Below, in pieces: positions 1,420 to 8,037 of a stretch of DNA of 64,000 bases (the first letter of the stretch is position 1; every line of letters begins with the position of its first letter). The notes below the pieces were generated by a model, which ran no database searches, was not told the origin of the DNA, and worked only from the letters and a program-made list of their open reading frames with translations. The stretch is from Sulfuricurvum sp. (GTDB taxonomy: Bacteria > Campylobacterota > Campylobacteria > Campylobacterales > Sulfurimonadaceae): NCBI GenBank assembly GCA_020721585.1, contig DYMK01000001.1, forward strand, positions 124,001 through 188,000, given 5' to 3'. The position numbers and the translations under genes are program-made.

Positions 1420-1890
1420 CTATAACGTTCCCTGTTCAGCCGCATCAAAAACATTTTGAGAAATGCCATATAACCGACGTTCCAAACGACCAATGTGTTC
1501 TAAAATATCATCCGAAGAAACTTGTAGTCGACTGAAATACTCTTTGGCGATCTCCCGTTCTTGCTCACCAATCTTCTTTTGGGAACTAAAAATTTTGGAA
1601 AAAAAGGAACGGTCACTGGTGTCAAAATAGATTTTAAAAATTTTAGTATAGTGTTCATGTACTTCAAAATGGGCTTTTTCAATGTCATGTAAACACTCTG
1701 TCGCCCCCAGCGCATTGAGTTGTTGCCCTTTGTCATAAAACCATTGCCCAAAATCGCAATCGGTACAATTCAACGGTATGGCATCTTGGTCAACGGGGAG
1801 TCCCCCAATCAATAATTTTGCCCGTTGCACCCATTTAACGTGCGATTTTTTTGCTTCAGCAAGCAATTGTAACGTAGCGGTTCGATCCAT
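1420..1890 (-). CDS. CZB-domain (chemoreceptor zinc-binding) protein
   Basis: Stand-alone CZB-like protein of 156 residues. It has the characteristic 'CTDCDFGQWFYDKGQQL' segment with the Cys of the zinc site, an early His in 'KSHVKWVQRAK', and later His residues in 'KAHFEVHEHY' that would complete the 3His/1Cys site. No transmembrane or signalling domain is attached. I start at the ATG at 1890 because AGAAGGAAA lies just upstream; an ATG at 1923 would add 11 residues without a clear ribosome site. CZB proteins in Campylobacterota are tied to chemotaxis or c-di-GMP sensing, but the partner is not visible here. Confidence 0.8.
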   Translation of the reverse strand: MDRTATLQLLAEAKKSHVKWVQRAKLLIGGLPVDQDAIPLNCTDCDFGQWFYDKGQQLNALGATECLHDIEKAHFEVHEHYTKIFKIYFDTSDRSFFSKIFSSQKKIGEQEREIAKEYFSRLQVSSDDILEHIGRLERRLYGISQNVFDAAEQGTL

Positions 1891-1984: not shown

Positions 1985-2075
1985 GCGCACGTAGCGTAAA
2001 ACCGCCCCGATCACATCATCATCGTCTTTGCTTTTACTTTGCAGGGTCTCTTTGCGACCATTATGGTATTCGATC
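1985..2075. repeat. Duplicate of the mfd 3' end (copy A)
   Basis: Bases 1992-2075 are identical over 84 bp to 2782-2865, the 3' end of mfd; the match extends to 1985 with two mismatches. Read on the minus strand copy A encodes the Mfd C-terminus (...GRKETLQSKSKDDDDVIGAVLRY) and then ends V-R-S-I-H-D-stop, against M-R-L-T-E-G-stop in the gene. The two copies bracket the toxin-antitoxin pair at 2098-2722. Confidence 0.95.
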
Positions 2076-2085
2076 CCATTTTTGA

Positions 2086-2091
2086 TATAAT
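2086..2091 (+). promoter_or_regulatory. -10 box TATAAT before the HigB-like gene
   Basis: A perfect TATAAT ends 6 nt before the ATG at 2098, so transcription would begin at about the start codon. No ribosome-binding site is visible between them. It lies just outside the mfd duplicate, so the promoter belongs to the inserted segment. Confidence 0.5.
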
Positions 2092-2097
2092 AAACGC

Positions 2098-2427
2098 ATG
2101 AAATGGGAAATTGATTTTTTTAACGAGACCATAGAAGCAGAGATTCTCGCTTTCCCTCCCAAAATTTTGGCGAAAATGCTCCACATTTTTGAGATGATTG
2201 AAGTGTATGGTCCCAATCTCGGAAAACCCTACACGGATGCATTCGGAGATGGACTTTTCGAGGTTAGAGCAAAAGGTGCTGAGGGAATAGGAAGAAGCTT
2301 TTTTTGTTATGCGCATGGGAAAAAAATCATTATCCTCCACGCATTTGTTAAAAAAACGCAAAAAACACCCCAAAGAGAGATCGAAATCGCATTAAAGCGA
2401 AAAAAGGAGATTCATCATGACCAATAG
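2098..2427 (+). CDS. HigB-like toxin (RelE superfamily, phage Gp49-like)
   Basis: 109-residue protein with the layout of Gp49-like/HigB toxins: 'KMLHIFEMIEVYG', 'GDGLFEVRAKGAEGIGRSFFCYAHGKKIIILHAFVKKTQKTP' and a basic tail 'EIALKRKKE'. The 'LFEVR...R..F.......I.LLHAF.KK..KTP' pattern is diagnostic of the family, which cleaves mRNA at the ribosome. It overlaps the downstream antitoxin gene by 11 bp, the toxin-first order of higBA systems. Convergent to mfd. Confidence 0.88.
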   Translation: MKWEIDFFNETIEAEILAFPPKILAKMLHIFEMIEVYGPNLGKPYTDAFGDGLFEVRAKGAEGIGRSFFCYAHGKKIIILHAFVKKTQKTPQREIEIALKRKKEIHHDQ

Positions 2428-2722
2428 ACCTTCTTTTGAAACATTCAAAGAAAAAGCTCTCCAAAATGGAGAAGTAAAAGCCCAGTACGAAGCGTTAAAA
2501 CCCATCTTTGCACTCAAAAAACAGATGATAAAAGCGCGCCTTGATGCAAAACTTTCCCAAGAGGATGTTGCCATCCTATTGCACACACAAAAAAGTACTA
2601 TTTCGAGATTAGAGAGTCCTAATAGTAAAAGTTTGCCGAATTTATCCACCTTAATGGAATACGCAAAAGCTGTCGGATTTCATTTGGAAATCACTCTAAC
2701 GAAAAACCATTTAGCGTTATAA
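2417..2722 (+). CDS. HigA-like XRE antitoxin
   Basis: 101-residue helix-turn-helix protein. The HTH spans roughly residues 38-63 ('RLDAKLSQEDVAILLHTQKSTISRLES'), followed by 'LPNLSTLMEYAKAVGFHLEI', typical of HigA antitoxins. It should neutralise the upstream toxin and repress the operon. RBS AAAGGAGA precedes the ATG. It ends 37 bp before the mfd stop codon on the opposite strand. Confidence 0.88.
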   Translation: MTNRPSFETFKEKALQNGEVKAQYEALKPIFALKKQMIKARLDAKLSQEDVAILLHTQKSTISRLESPNSKSLPNLSTLMEYAKAVGFHLEITLTKNHLAL

Positions 2723-2759
2723 AAAACAAAAGACATCCACCTATGCTCGATAGTCACTA

Positions 2760-5738
2760 TCAACCCTCTGTCAGGCGCATATAGCGTAAAACCGCCCCGA
2801 TCACATCATCATCGTCTTTGCTTTTACTTTGCAGGGTCTCTTTGCGACCATTATGGTATTCGATCGTGATATTTTGATGATAGTTGCTCACCATTTTGAT
2901 CTTCTTTTGGATTGCTAATACCTTAATGACCATCAGCTCAAAAAATTGTTGGGTAGGGATGTCGGGTTTACCAAACCGATCTTCCACCTCTTCGAGAATC
3001 GCATAAATGGCACGGGGTGATTCACAGTGACTTAGTCGTCGGTACAGCTCTAAGCGCAATCGATCTTCGGTCACGATGTCATCGCTAATAAAGGCACTGA
3101 TGGTGAGTTTAATGTCCACTTTAGCTTTGACTTCATGGGTTTGGTTGGTGAGAATTTTAATCGCATCTTCGAGCATTCTCAAATAAAGGGAATAGCCGAT
3201 GTTTTTGATATGACCACTTTGGGCATCCCCTACAAGATTGCCTCCACCGCGAATTTCGAGGTCGTGATGCGCCAACATCGAGCCGCTGCCCAAAAAGGAG
3301 TTGGATTCGAGTGCAACCAACCGTTTTTTTGCTTCAGGGGTGAGATGCTCTTTATCATCAACGATAAAATAGGCATACCCCTCACTGTGACCGCGCCCCA
3401 CACGACCACGCAATTGATGCAAATCCGCCATCCCGAACCGATCCGCCCCATCGATAATCATCGTATTGACCGTGGGCATATGGATCCCCGATTCGATGAT
3501 GGAGGTAGCAAGGAGTACATCGTACTGCCGATCAGCAAATTTGGCTAACTCCTCTTCGGTGTGGGTCGCACTGATTTGGGAGTGCAAGATGAGGATACGC
3601 AAGTGGGGAAGAATGGCTTTAAGTTCGCCTGATTTGATGATCATGGAATCAATCGAGTTATGGACATAAAACACCTGCCCACCCCGTCGGAGTTCCCGTA
3701 AAATGACCTCTTTAATCAGCTTTTCGTCGTAATTTTTGACAAACGTCCGCACGCCCAACCGTTCACTGGGTGGGGTGAGGAGTTCGGACATGGTTTTGAT
3801 CGAGCTAAGCGCTTGGTTAAGACTGCGCGGGATGGGGGTGGCACTCATGCTAAGCAGATGGACGTTTTCGTAGAGATTTTTGAGTTTCTCTTTTTGTTTC
3901 ACCCCAAATTTATGCTCTTCATCGATGATGACGATCCCAAGCTTCGCACACCGTACCCCAAAGAGGGCATGGGTTCCCACCACACAATCCAGTTCCCCTG
4001 CTTCCAGTGCGCGAAGGGTTGCATTTTTCTCTTTGGTCGTAATGAACCGATCCAATTTTGCCACCCGAAGCCCAAAGGGTTCAAGACGACTTTTGAGGGA
4101 TTGGAAATGTTGGGAACTCAACAACGTCGTGGGGACAACCAACAGCGATTGGAATCCCCCTTTGGCCGCGGCGAAGATAGTATTCATCGCTACTTCGGTT
4201 TTCCCAAATCCCACATCCCCACTCAAAAGACGATCCATAATCTGCCCCGAAGCAAGATCGGTGATGATGGCATCAATCGCACGGGATTGGTCAGGGGTAT
4301 ACTCAAACCCTGAGGCGCGTTGAAAACGGCGCAATTCCCCCCCATCGACCCTGATCACCGAAGCACGAATCAAGGCACGGCTGGCGGCAATCCCCACAAT
4401 TTCGGAGGCAATCTCAAACAAACGCGCTTTAACCGAGGCTTTGAGCTTCCCAAAACTCCCTTTCCCCAAACGATCCAACACGGGCAACGACCCTGAGGCG
4501 ATATAACGGTCAATCGTATCGAGATTTTCAACGGGGAGGAGGAGTTTATCATCACCCATGTATTTGAGAACGACGAGGTCTTTGATACCGCCCAAAATTT
4601 CGGCTTGCTCAATCCCCTCGAAAATCCCCACGCCGTACTCTTCATGGACGACATAATCACCCACTTTGAGATCATCAAGGAGGATGGTCGTGCGACGAGT
4701 GCGACGTTTTTTCTCTACGTGATTCAGGGAAAAAATAATCTCATCGTTCCCGATAAGATTGAGGACGATCCCCGAATAGACCACCTTTACCCCCGCAAGA
4801 TCAAAAATCTCTGCGGCTTTACATTGGGTCTCACTGGCGGTAATAAGGGTCATTTTTTTGGTTTTATGCAACGCACGAAGGGTCTGAAACTGTCCCCCCA
4901 CCAAGGGGGTATAGTGGTGTGCTTCGGGGATGATCTCCCCCTCAAAGCGTTGGCGGGGCAAAGCATACGAATCCAGACCATACGCTTCATCCAACACGCT
5001 TTTCATCTCACGGATACGCACCACCTTTTTTTCCGCACACAGATCACTCCCATACTCCCCCAAAACCCAAAACCCCAGCGAGGCGATGTCTTTGACAAAG
5101 CTATCACTAGAAGCGGTGTTAATGGCATTTTCAAACGCGGTGTATTGGGTTGCATTCAGGGAAAAAAAGGCACTGGTCACCTCAATCGAAGCCAACTCCT
5201 CTTTGTTCGTACGTTGGGTCTCCACATCGAAAGCTTTGATCTCTTCGATCTCATCATCGAACAAACTGATACGATAAGGATGGGGCTGATCGGGGACGTA
5301 AATATCGAGAATATCCCCCCGATGAGAGACCTCTCCTTCCATCTCGACCATATCGACAAACGTGTATCCCCAGTGAAGCAATTGTCCTTTAAAGGCACCA
5401 AGATCAAGGCGTGAAGCAAACTCTATCGTCTGACTTTGGAGCAAGGAGGACTTTGGCATGGGAAACAGTAACGTTTTGAGCGGAGCGATAATGAGCGGTT
5501 TTTTTGTCGCCGTATAATAACTACGCAATGCAGCAAAAAGGGCAAAAAGCTCTTCACTAAAGGGGCGTAAATCGTCCATGTACGTCGCCCGAAAATCGGG
5601 TAATACGATAGAATTCACCCCTAAAAAGGTCGATACATCACGTAATTCTGAAGCTTCTTTTGCATCCTCACAGACCACAATATCGGGAAGGTTTTTGGGA
5701 TTATTTTTGAGGTATTCATACCAGCGTGCTTGGGACAT
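2760..5738 (-). CDS. mfd: Transcription-repair coupling factor Mfd
   Basis: ATP-dependent translocase that removes RNA polymerase stalled at lesions and recruits UvrA. The 992 residues show the UvrB-like N-terminal part, the RNAP-interacting domain ('DYVVHEEYGVGIFEGIEQAEILGG'), helicase motif I 'LLSGDVGFGKTEVA', the 'DEEH' Walker B box, 'SATPIPRSL', the 'QLRGRVGRG' motif and the TRCF C-terminal domain. It is shorter than E. coli Mfd (1148), as expected in Campylobacterota. I chose the ATG at 5738 because GAGGAAAG sits upstream; an ATG 13 codons earlier lacks this. The last ~30 codons are duplicated at 1985-2075, so the C-terminal six residues have probably been replaced (see findings). Confidence 0.95.
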   Translation of the reverse strand: MSQARWYEYLKNNPKNLPDIVVCEDAKEASELRDVSTFLGVNSIVLPDFRATYMDDLRPFSEELFALFAALRSYYTATKKPLIIAPLKTLLFPMPKSSLLQSQTIEFASRLDLGAFKGQLLHWGYTFVDMVEMEGEVSHRGDILDIYVPDQPHPYRISLFDDEIEEIKAFDVETQRTNKEELASIEVTSAFFSLNATQYTAFENAINTASSDSFVKDIASLGFWVLGEYGSDLCAEKKVVRIREMKSVLDEAYGLDSYALPRQRFEGEIIPEAHHYTPLVGGQFQTLRALHKTKKMTLITASETQCKAAEIFDLAGVKVVYSGIVLNLIGNDEIIFSLNHVEKKRRTRRTTILLDDLKVGDYVVHEEYGVGIFEGIEQAEILGGIKDLVVLKYMGDDKLLLPVENLDTIDRYIASGSLPVLDRLGKGSFGKLKASVKARLFEIASEIVGIAASRALIRASVIRVDGGELRRFQRASGFEYTPDQSRAIDAIITDLASGQIMDRLLSGDVGFGKTEVAMNTIFAAAKGGFQSLLVVPTTLLSSQHFQSLKSRLEPFGLRVAKLDRFITTKEKNATLRALEAGELDCVVGTHALFGVRCAKLGIVIIDEEHKFGVKQKEKLKNLYENVHLLSMSATPIPRSLNQALSSIKTMSELLTPPSERLGVRTFVKNYDEKLIKEVILRELRRGGQVFYVHNSIDSMIIKSGELKAILPHLRILILHSQISATHTEEELAKFADRQYDVLLATSIIESGIHMPTVNTMIIDGADRFGMADLHQLRGRVGRGHSEGYAYFIVDDKEHLTPEAKKRLVALESNSFLGSGSMLAHHDLEIRGGGNLVGDAQSGHIKNIGYSLYLRMLEDAIKILTNQTHEVKAKVDIKLTISAFISDDIVTEDRLRLELYRRLSHCESPRAIYAILEEVEDRFGKPDIPTQQFFELMVIKVLAIQKKIKMVSNYHQNITIEYHNGRKETLQSKSKDDDDVIGAVLRYMRLTEG

Positions 5739-5860
5739 TAGATTTTTCTTTCCTCTTCTAGGTTTAATTTTATACATATTACAGTAGAATTCCTATCAAA
5801 GGTTCCCAGCTACTGACAAGACTCCAAGGGAGACTTCTTCGGATAGGTAGCATGGGTCAT

Positions 5861-6850
5861 TTAATAATGAACTTCCACTCTGTCTTTTGTCATAACCTCT
5901 TCTTCCAATAAATACTGTTTAATCATTTCATAATAGCTTGGATCGCCTTGCTCATACTTTCGATTTATAGCCCATCCGATATAGTCGATGATTTGTAAAT
6001 TTGAACTTGATGCACTGCAATGGTGATGAATTGAATATCGTAGCACCTTGCCGTTCGCCCTCAAATATTGCTTGATCCCTTTTTTAAGTGCTTTAATCAA
6101 AGCACTTTTATTCGCTTGAAGTGGTAATCTGTCCGTGATAATAATAAAATTTCTGTCGATTTTAATTTTATCCAGTAGCTGTGTGGTTGCAAGCGTGAGA
6201 TTATCGACATAAAAAACGGAGTTCTCTTTTCGTTTATCGGGATTGACTTTTGGCTTTTCGAGGATATAGGAATATACTTGTACCGCTTCTTTGGTAAAAG
6301 TGCTGATGGTTTCAAACATTCTTTGTCGAATATATTTATTGTCTTCACACGCATGAAACGCTTCTATATTCAAAACTTTATCCAGTGTCGGATCAAGATT
6401 TCGTTCCAGTAGCTCATAGCGATAATTGGCAATATACTCATGCAGTTGAAACGGACGTGTTTTAACCAAAAAGTTAAACATATAATGTTTGCTACCCTTG
6501 GGTGAAAAATCCATATCACCCGCTTCGTCAACGAAAATATAAACCGTATCGCTGATAGTAGAGGACTCTATTTTTTCATTGATGGCAAATTTGATTGATG
6601 AGATTTTGTCATAGTCGCGCTCCATTCCATTTACAATCTCTAAAATCAAACTTTTCTCATCTTCATCGATTTTTTTTAATTCAAAAAAATAAATTGGATT
6701 GACATAAAATATTGCAATTTTATAGGTTTCATTCCATTCTCTGTGTACATCCTTTTCAATATAAGCATTTTCAAATTTCAATGCCAAATCAAAGCGTTTT
6801 TGTATTCTTAAAAGATTTTGGATAGTTTTTATGGTGTTATCTTGTTTCAT
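5861..6850 (-). CDS. DUF3800 protein, predicted RNase H-like fold
   Basis: 329 residues. The segment 'YIFVDEAGDMDF' (about 104-115) and a distal 'LQIIDYIGWAINRKYEQGD' (about 282-300) are the hallmark blocks of DUF3800, whose conserved acidic residues suggest a RNase H-like nuclease. The biochemical role is unknown; members often sit in mobile or defence-rich DNA. The gene is visibly more A+T-rich than folC and mfd. Its ATG overlaps the folC stop by 4 nt (ATGA), so it is translationally coupled to a housekeeping operon. A 120-bp gap separates it from mfd. Confidence 0.75.
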   Translation of the reverse strand: MKQDNTIKTIQNLLRIQKRFDLALKFENAYIEKDVHREWNETYKIAIFYVNPIYFFELKKIDEDEKSLILEIVNGMERDYDKISSIKFAINEKIESSTISDTVYIFVDEAGDMDFSPKGSKHYMFNFLVKTRPFQLHEYIANYRYELLERNLDPTLDKVLNIEAFHACEDNKYIRQRMFETISTFTKEAVQVYSYILEKPKVNPDKRKENSVFYVDNLTLATTQLLDKIKIDRNFIIITDRLPLQANKSALIKALKKGIKQYLRANGKVLRYSIHHHCSASSSNLQIIDYIGWAINRKYEQGDPSYYEMIKQYLLEEEVMTKDRVEVHY

Positions 6851-8037
6851 GGTTTCCCTTTCACCGTGTGAGCTATTTCAATACGCTTCAAAAACGCCTC
6901 AGCCACACTAAAAGATCCAAAGACCAAATAGTTTTTTGTGGGGTCAATGGCGTGAAAAGAGCCATAATCGATCCCCAAATTGCGCAAGACAGCTTCCAAT
7001 GCTTCGCGTGGGGCAATGCGGGATTCGTTCACATCGATAATTTCTACCGATGCAATAATCGGCTTTAAGATACGCAAAATCTCATGGTACTCTTTATCGG
7101 CATAGGTGTTATAAATCAAGGTCACCTTTTGCCCTTGAAAATGGTGGGCGATGGAGGTGGCCGCAAGGGCATTATGTCCTACATCAAGGGTAATATTAGG
7201 GGCAATGGGGGTTAATCGTCCAAAAAGGGCATTTTGATCAAATACGCGCTGCGTCGCTTCGTGTCCCAACACCTCAAAAGCCGCCATGGCAAGGATAAGG
7301 TTATCACGCAAAGCATCACTGAGATGATTTTTCTGGGCAAGCTTTTGGGCAAGAGCGAGGATGGTTTCGCTTGCCATCCCATCAATGCACAGCAGGGTAC
7401 ACCCTTTTTCGGTGGCGATCTGACGGGCGATAATTTTGGTTTGGATATGGGGTTGTTTGCCCAATAACGCTTTGGTGTGCATACTGCGCAGTTTCGTCCC
7501 TGCAATGGAGTGAATGGTTGTCCCCAAAAAAGCGGCATGATCAAAATCGATGGGGGTAAAAACACTCAACGTTTTAGCAAATACATTGGTCGCATCAAAC
7601 TCCCCTCCAAGCCCCGCTTCGAGTACCACATAGTCACACCCCTCATACACGATCATCGCCAAAAGGGTAGTGTATTCAAAATAGCTCAATGCGTCAGAAT
7701 CCTCATCGTCTAACAAACAGAGAAGTTTGTGGTGGGCATTCTCCAACAGCGCATCCGCTACGTCTGCACCATTGAGCCAAATGCGTTCATTGAATTGGAG
7801 AATATGGGGAGAGGTGTAATGCCCTACGGTGTAACCTGCACGGTGCAAGGCGGTCGCCAAAAATCGCCCTGTGGAGCCTTTGCCATTGGTTCCGACAAGG
7901 TGGATGATGGGGGGAAGTGATAGTTTTTCGTGGAGAGTGGCGTAGATTGTGGGGAAACGGTTAACCTCAATCACCTCATAAAAAAGAGGCTTTGAGGCTA
8001 GAAATTCAGTAAGAGCCATTGTGATCGCTTTGGTCAT
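6847..8037 (-). CDS. folC: Bifunctional folylpolyglutamate/dihydrofolate synthase FolC
   Basis: Mur-ligase-family enzyme that adds glutamate to dihydropteroate and folates. It carries the P-loop 'HLVGTNGKGSTGRFLATAL', 'YTSPHILQFNERI', 'YFEYTTLLA' and 'EAGLGGEFDATN', all FolC signatures, in 396 residues. Two in-frame ATGs, at 8037 and 8019, both overlap lptE; neither has a strong ribosome site, so translation is probably coupled to lptE. I kept the longer form, but Met7 (8019, 'MALTEFL') is as likely. Confidence 0.92.
   Translation of the reverse strand: MTKAITMALTEFLASKPLFYEVIEVNRFPTIYATLHEKLSLPPIIHLVGTNGKGSTGRFLATALHRAGYTVGHYTSPHILQFNERIWLNGADVADALLENAHHKLLCLLDDEDSDALSYFEYTTLLAMIVYEGCDYVVLEAGLGGEFDATNVFAKTLSVFTPIDFDHAAFLGTTIHSIAGTKLRSMHTKALLGKQPHIQTKIIARQIATEKGCTLLCIDGMASETILALAQKLAQKNHLSDALRDNLILAMAAFEVLGHEATQRVFDQNALFGRLTPIAPNITLDVGHNALAATSIAHHFQGQKVTLIYNTYADKEYHEILRILKPIIASVEIIDVNESRIAPREALEAVLRNLGIDYGSFHAIDPTKNYLVFGSFSVAEAFLKRIEIAHTVKGKP

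Follow-up and report, generated by a model that had tools for sequence, protein, structure and literature searches.

A gene pair between two ends of mfd

The window analyzed here is a 64-kb stretch of a Sulfuricurvum genome (genome G000, contig C33, positions 124001–188000), and the subject is a HigBA-like toxin–antitoxin (TA) pair situated at the 3′ end of mfd. The mfd gene is an intact open reading frame on the minus strand (2760–5777 of the window; TIGR00580, 1027.5 bits). Beyond its 3′ end follow, in this order, the convergent two-gene operon of the TA pair, a second mfd end of ∼91 bp, a gene encoding a CZB-domain protein (1420–1890, minus strand; PF13682), and a gene which, from recognition of its sequence, we take to be RlmC/TrmA-like.

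The two copies of the mfd end, both on the minus strand, share 84 identical bp (1992–2075 and 2782–2865), which bears out the original prediction of an 84-bp repeat of the mfd end, in the same orientation and with a TA pair in between. When two mismatches are allowed, the direct repeat of host sequence around the insert extends to 91 bp at 97.8% identity (distal copy, 1985–2075; proximal copy, 2775–2865). It is the sole direct repeat of at least 40 nt in the window, and when twenty 20-kb pieces of this contig were examined along with the window, just three others of at least 40 bp and at least 85% identity, spaced 300–3,000 bp, were found; chance is therefore not the explanation. The two copies lead to different C-termini. 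The Mfd protein reads ...AVLRYMRLTEG-stop, using the proximal copy, and the sequence encoded by the distal copy is ...AVLRYVRSIHD-stop (stop codon, 1970–1972). Past the 84 bp, the copies stay aligned by codon (TAC GTG CGC versus TAT ATG CGC) and then diverge. From this codon comparison, the present tail of mfd, which after the codons for RY consists of ATG CGC CTG ACA GAG GGT TGA (2760–2781, minus strand), was probably imported.

The insert encodes a full-length toxin of the HigB/Gp49 type (2098–2427, plus strand; PF05973, 4e-29, 100.9 bits; HigB structure 6af3, 3e-6) and a HigA-like helix-turn-helix antitoxin (2417–2722, plus strand; PF01381, 2.8e-6; HigA2/HigA3 structures matched weakly, 0.005). 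The toxin gene stands first, with the antitoxin gene downstream and overlapping it by 11 nt; this arrangement and the family matches of both proteins resemble type II TA systems of the HigBA kind, as does the operator-like palindrome at the promoter of homologous copies. The window copy differs in being short of one palindrome half at the joint. Eight further Sulfuricurvum genomes contain homologous TA pairs, located elsewhere in every case, and the sequence preceding their toxin gene is conserved around AAAAGTTATCATTTTTGATATAAT, with a palindrome resembling GTTATCA-N4-TGATAAC at the promoter. In the window, this conserved block is cut at 2076/2077 (joint between mfd remnant and TA pair, 2075–2077), and mfd sequence replaces the left palindrome half, GTTATCA in the other copies. 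The right half is retained within a putative extended −10 promoter, TGATATAAT (2083–2091, plus strand), which is conserved in the other TA copies. At the opposite side, the outer part of the spacer between the antitoxin stop and the mfd stop (2723–2759) is unmatched in the other copies, whose similarity ends at 2700–2731. Because the window pair is cut inside a block conserved elsewhere, its left edge is not a fixed element end, and a locus-specific element end was ruled out. Judged by family, the pair probably works as a HigBA module that lost one operator half at the joint.

Members of the toxin family are frequent on plasmids (best match 67.9%, to a Sulfurospirillum plasmid) and rare on phages; a search of plasmids and phages for the family did not find a direct vector of the window pair. 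Beside homologous TA copies in other Sulfuricurvum genomes (L087–L090) lies a dispersed repeat family of ∼80 bp (CGGCATTATCAACTCCCTTTTTATCGG...).

The native end of mfd

For comparison, 31 further mfd loci were used in which the end of the gene could be read (L051–L081), all from species other than that of the window and at most 86% identical in protein. All 31 have a single mfd end, with neither a TA pair nor a second end at this place, and a TA-free relative carrying both copies was thus not found among them. A second mfd-end match in L080 was discarded as a chance match of 23 bp. The CZB-domain gene is the native downstream neighbor of mfd, the order being the same in relatives, and in the relatives that have it next to mfd, 38–94 bp separate its start from the mfd stop. 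The corresponding distance in the window, counted from the stop of the distal copy, is 79 bp. Since the distal copy thus has both the native neighbor and the native spacing, it is the original end, in its native place, as had been proposed. It is now a remnant comprising the repeat (1985–2075) and the remaining native end, SIHD-stop (1970–1984), both on the minus strand.

The tails themselves do not tell which C-terminus is ancestral, because neither VRSIHD nor MRLTEG matches any relative, the usual tail being LRTAKPKVL-like and variable; position does. Of the two termini offered as candidates for the ancestral one, neither is therefore literally ancestral, and VRSIHD is the original one by position.

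Duplicated gene ends at other loci

The copies can be told apart in another genome, G036, where a ParDE pair lies between two 81-bp copies (87.7% identity) of the end of a cytochrome-like gene before rpmH (L223, 1181–1261 and 1820–1900). The copies differ in 12 codons, nine of them synonymous, including a TAG/TGA swap. The end of the distal copy and the bases that follow (GTA ATG CCC ACC TTG CGG GAA TTT TTG AAA CCG TGA GAA) equal those of G034, in which the site is empty. The proximal copy starts like G034 and ends CGG GAT TTT TTA AAG CCT TAG GCG, its 3′ part matching G013 exactly and G035 and G003 closely; in G035 and G003, that gene is followed directly by the same ParDE pair. The proximal copy combines a native-like 5′ part with a foreign 3′ part and is a hybrid, and TA-bearing genomes have the same gene order at this locus. 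Most simply, the gene end beside ParDE would have come from a TA-bearing lineage, and the native end would be the remnant. Because G036 and its nearest relatives are only ∼80–87% alike throughout, an identity-tract test at the rpmH locus did not discriminate the imported region.

Other TA pairs beside duplicated gene ends, which the original prediction had suggested looking for, were found in further genomes. In G042, which belongs to another family, a homologous TA pair between recR and aroE stands between two exact copies of the 60-bp end of recR, stop codon included, and in relatives recR and aroE are contiguous, the insert being absent. Inside this recR insert, beside the TA pair, lies a palindromic repeat of ∼160 bp (L093, ∼4940–5099), of which the genome holds at least nine copies of 87–94% identity. 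In G198, a homologous TA pair follows a gene of 854 codons, the last 69 bp of which (94%) recur past the insert in mosaic surroundings, and in G018 a 68-bp repeat (94%) starting inside the 3′ end of tRNA-Glu flanks a homologous TA pair near a contig end.

Two inserts of other content have the same kind of flank. Upstream of mfd in L077, a Fic-type gene is flanked by a 90-bp direct repeat (34–123 and 1611–1700; 98.9%) comprising the end of the upstream gene and the start of mfd. On the contig of the window itself, an 84-bp repeat (98.8%) of the end of an S2P-like gene beside hisF (L218, 12745–12828 and 15031–15114) encloses 2.2 kb with an oxidoreductase gene and a Crp-type regulator gene. The S2P-like gene now ends TTVPN, and in the distal copy, which overlaps the stop of hisF, the reading is TTVPESH; the copies differ only near their left edge (ATT/ATG), with six matching bases beyond. 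Because this insert contains no TA pair and yet has the same footprint, the process is not confined to TA pairs. The protein names used for these loci are those that we presume from recognizing the sequences, rather than from family searches.

Several further arrangements stand apart from these. In L090, a lipoprotein-like open reading frame is enclosed by a 299-bp repeat (5581–5878 and 6610–6908; 89.6%) consisting of the 3′ portion of a ferredoxin-like gene, and a TA pair adjoins it outside the repeat pair. In two loci from other families (L095, 1934–2304; L096, 5630–6005), homologous TA pairs lie shortly behind the 3′ end of the transfer-messenger RNA (tmRNA) gene, where a bracketing repeat of the required length was not found. 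Repeats beside the homologous TA pairs of G025, G026, G029, and G008 were rejected as gene ends, as they look like dispersed repeat families.

How often TA loci are bracketed in this way was counted at cut-offs of our own choosing (at least 50 bp and at least 85% identity). Of 88 distinct TA loci flanked on either side by 1 kb or more, five were bracketed, one of them (G008) by a dispersed repeat only, which leaves four; among 490 control positions, one was bracketed, namely, the Fic insert (4/88 versus 1/490, P = 0.002). With the window left out, 3 of 87 TA loci were bracketed (P = 0.012). We take these figures to support, and not to prove, an enrichment of bracketing repeats at TA loci, because the controls are a set of modest size and we chose the cut-offs ourselves.

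Two neighboring genes of the window may be mentioned here. A gene for a YafQ-type toxin (13–303; PF15738) stands directly behind the RlmC/TrmA-like gene, and a gene for a DUF3800 protein (5861–6850), with a weak PADLOC match to DUF3800_VII, lies between mfd and a folC-like gene.

Origin of the insert

On balance, the insert at mfd would appear to be a 0.7-kb acquired HigBA-like pair that was imported with an mfd end by one-sided homologous recombination. The source would be a related bacterium whose TA pair lay behind mfd. Donor DNA with the mfd 3′ end and the TA pair would have been taken up, for instance through natural transformation, and would have recombined within the conserved mfd end, so that the host gene gained the donor tail MRLTEG and stayed intact; a hybrid gene end of this kind is present at the ParDE locus in G036. 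The fragment's opposite end, in the TA promoter region, would have been joined without long homology ∼100 bp before the native mfd end, with the sister chromosome, or a fragment circularized before a single crossover, as alternative settings. The native last ∼100 bp of mfd (VRSIHD) stayed beside the old neighbor as a nonfunctional remnant, as its position and spacing show. Insertions at gene 3′ ends may survive since the donor provides a complete end, and addiction to the TA pair would aid retention. The detectable duplication measures 60–91 bp in the cases seen.

One-sided homologous insertion, or homology-facilitated illegitimate recombination (HFIR), is known experimentally, and so are gene-end duplications of 109–950 bp by single crossover of circularized fragments (PMC3240628). 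Natural transformation leads to partial chromosome duplications in pneumococcus (PMC3784515), and at type VI secretion system loci of Vibrio, old gene ends displaced behind imported modules have been explained likewise (PMC5361080). By the proposed route, the mfd locus would resemble the products of HFIR and of circularized-fragment crossover in having one homologous and one illegitimate joint and the old end behind the new module. Near the mfd joint, inspection shows the motif ATCAAAA in the two partners, though not in register. We infer the uptake route and the making of the joints, and that mfd took the path recorded at the sister locus.

A number of observations weigh against this import. 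Classical HFIR usually deletes host DNA rather than duplicating it (PMC3240628), whereas at the mfd joint a stretch of host DNA is duplicated, not deleted. The identity over 84 bp would be equally expected from a fresh target duplication. The recR copies, identical over 60 of 60 bp, give no hint of a foreign end, and in the left half of the distal G036 copy, donor and native sequence are not clearly told apart. Finally, a contig search and ∼40 genomes of the genus yielded neither a donor with mfd, the window TA pair, and the MRLTEG end nor a TA-free strain of the same species. At mfd itself, import is thus suggested by analogy with the sister locus and by the edge codons.

The most serious rival, although in our view rather unlikely, is a plain insertion with long target duplication, in which ∼90 bp of the host mfd end would have been copied to both sides and the proximal tail would stem from the insert or from later mutation. 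Complete identity of the copies, over 84 of 84 bp at mfd and, with sharp edges, over 60 of 60 bp at recR, fits such an event, and restriction–modification (R-M) systems show long, variable duplications of the order of 100 bp (PMC3874152). Mismatches aligned by codon, which lie right at the edge of the repeats at mfd and S2P, do not fit, nor does the proximal copy of G036 with its foreign 3′ part. We know of no transposase or other enzyme that makes such duplications. That both copies derive from the host is compatible with the 84 identical bp at mfd, has to accommodate edge differences by codon, and is contradicted at G036; the mfd edge differences are a weaker sign of the same kind as the G036 hybrid. 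The original prediction had left it between a foreign mfd end arriving with the module and a long target duplication, and by the G036 hybrid and the mfd edge codons, the foreign end is the better of the two. The target duplication keeps its share of probability for mfd because neither a same-species strain nor an mfd–TA donor was found.

Quite improbable is a minimal element that an integrase, supplied in trans, would have inserted site-specifically at the 3′ ends of genes or tRNAs, with the repeats as att sites and the proximal end borne by the element. The window locus resembles the sites of integrative elements by which the 3′ end of a tRNA or other gene is restored, in that mfd is intact, its 3′ end has been exchanged, and the old end lies on the far side; moreover, one case concerns tRNA-Glu, homologous TA copies lie close behind tmRNA genes, and repeat lengths cluster at 60–91 bp. 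Such an origin is, however, at odds with the many unrelated targets, with inserts that lack an integrase and fixed ends, with insert ends that differ between homologous TA copies, and with cargo other than TA leaving the same footprint; a shared short core sequence was not seen among the cases by inspection. The suggested likeness to elements that rebuild gene ends, in the sense of a defined site-specific element, was thus not supported. Import of a foreign end is preferred over both a target duplication and a site-specific element because the proximal copy of G036 is a hybrid and its distal copy ends like the empty-site allele. Short tandem duplications are common in bacteria, but an earlier tandem duplication of the mfd end, with the TA pair landing between the copies later, would require a pair of independent events, repeated at several loci, and relatives with the duplication but no insert were not found; assembly error, which together with it we consider the most improbable origin of all, is opposed by the position of the repeat inside a 452-kb contig, by its being shorter than ordinary short reads, and by analogous structures in independently assembled genomes.

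The mfd locus belongs with insertions by long target duplication, which have been described for R-M systems (PMC3874152, PMC3031569, PMC4978471), although one sister locus contradicts a copied target. Common to both are a small addiction-type unit, long and variable direct repeats of host sequence, and the absence of a transposase, and Helicobacter pylori belongs to the same phylum. The differences are that the cargo here is a TA pair, that the repeats are gene 3′ ends, and that the sister locus has one foreign copy, not accounted for by a copied target. The empty single-copy site is seen in relatives, at the 31 mfd loci of other species and, for the recR case, at recR–aroE. For R-M systems, long target duplication was reportedly first proposed from H. 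pylori, and the original papers are said to be those of Nobusato et al in 2000 and Furuta et al in 2010. For TA pairs, long target duplication was found undescribed in the literature searched, most subscription journals lying outside it.

Beyond the proposed import at mfd, we tentatively suggest that TA pairs of Campylobacterota may spread among relatives by hitchhiking on gene ends, as a packet of a gene 3′ end and a TA pair that is joined homologously on one side and illegitimately on the other. If so, the packet would add itself without breaking the gene, the remnant of the old end being its footprint, and the flanking repeats would allow its later loss or re-export. The routes by which TA pairs devoid of mobility genes reach chromosomes are, to our knowledge, mostly unexplained. 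The footprint, a remnant end beyond the TA pair together with an exchanged C-terminus, makes one entry route readable in genomes, and the G036 locus shows how donor can be told from host sequence. For annotation, this means that the extreme C-terminus of a conserved gene beside a TA pair can be imported.

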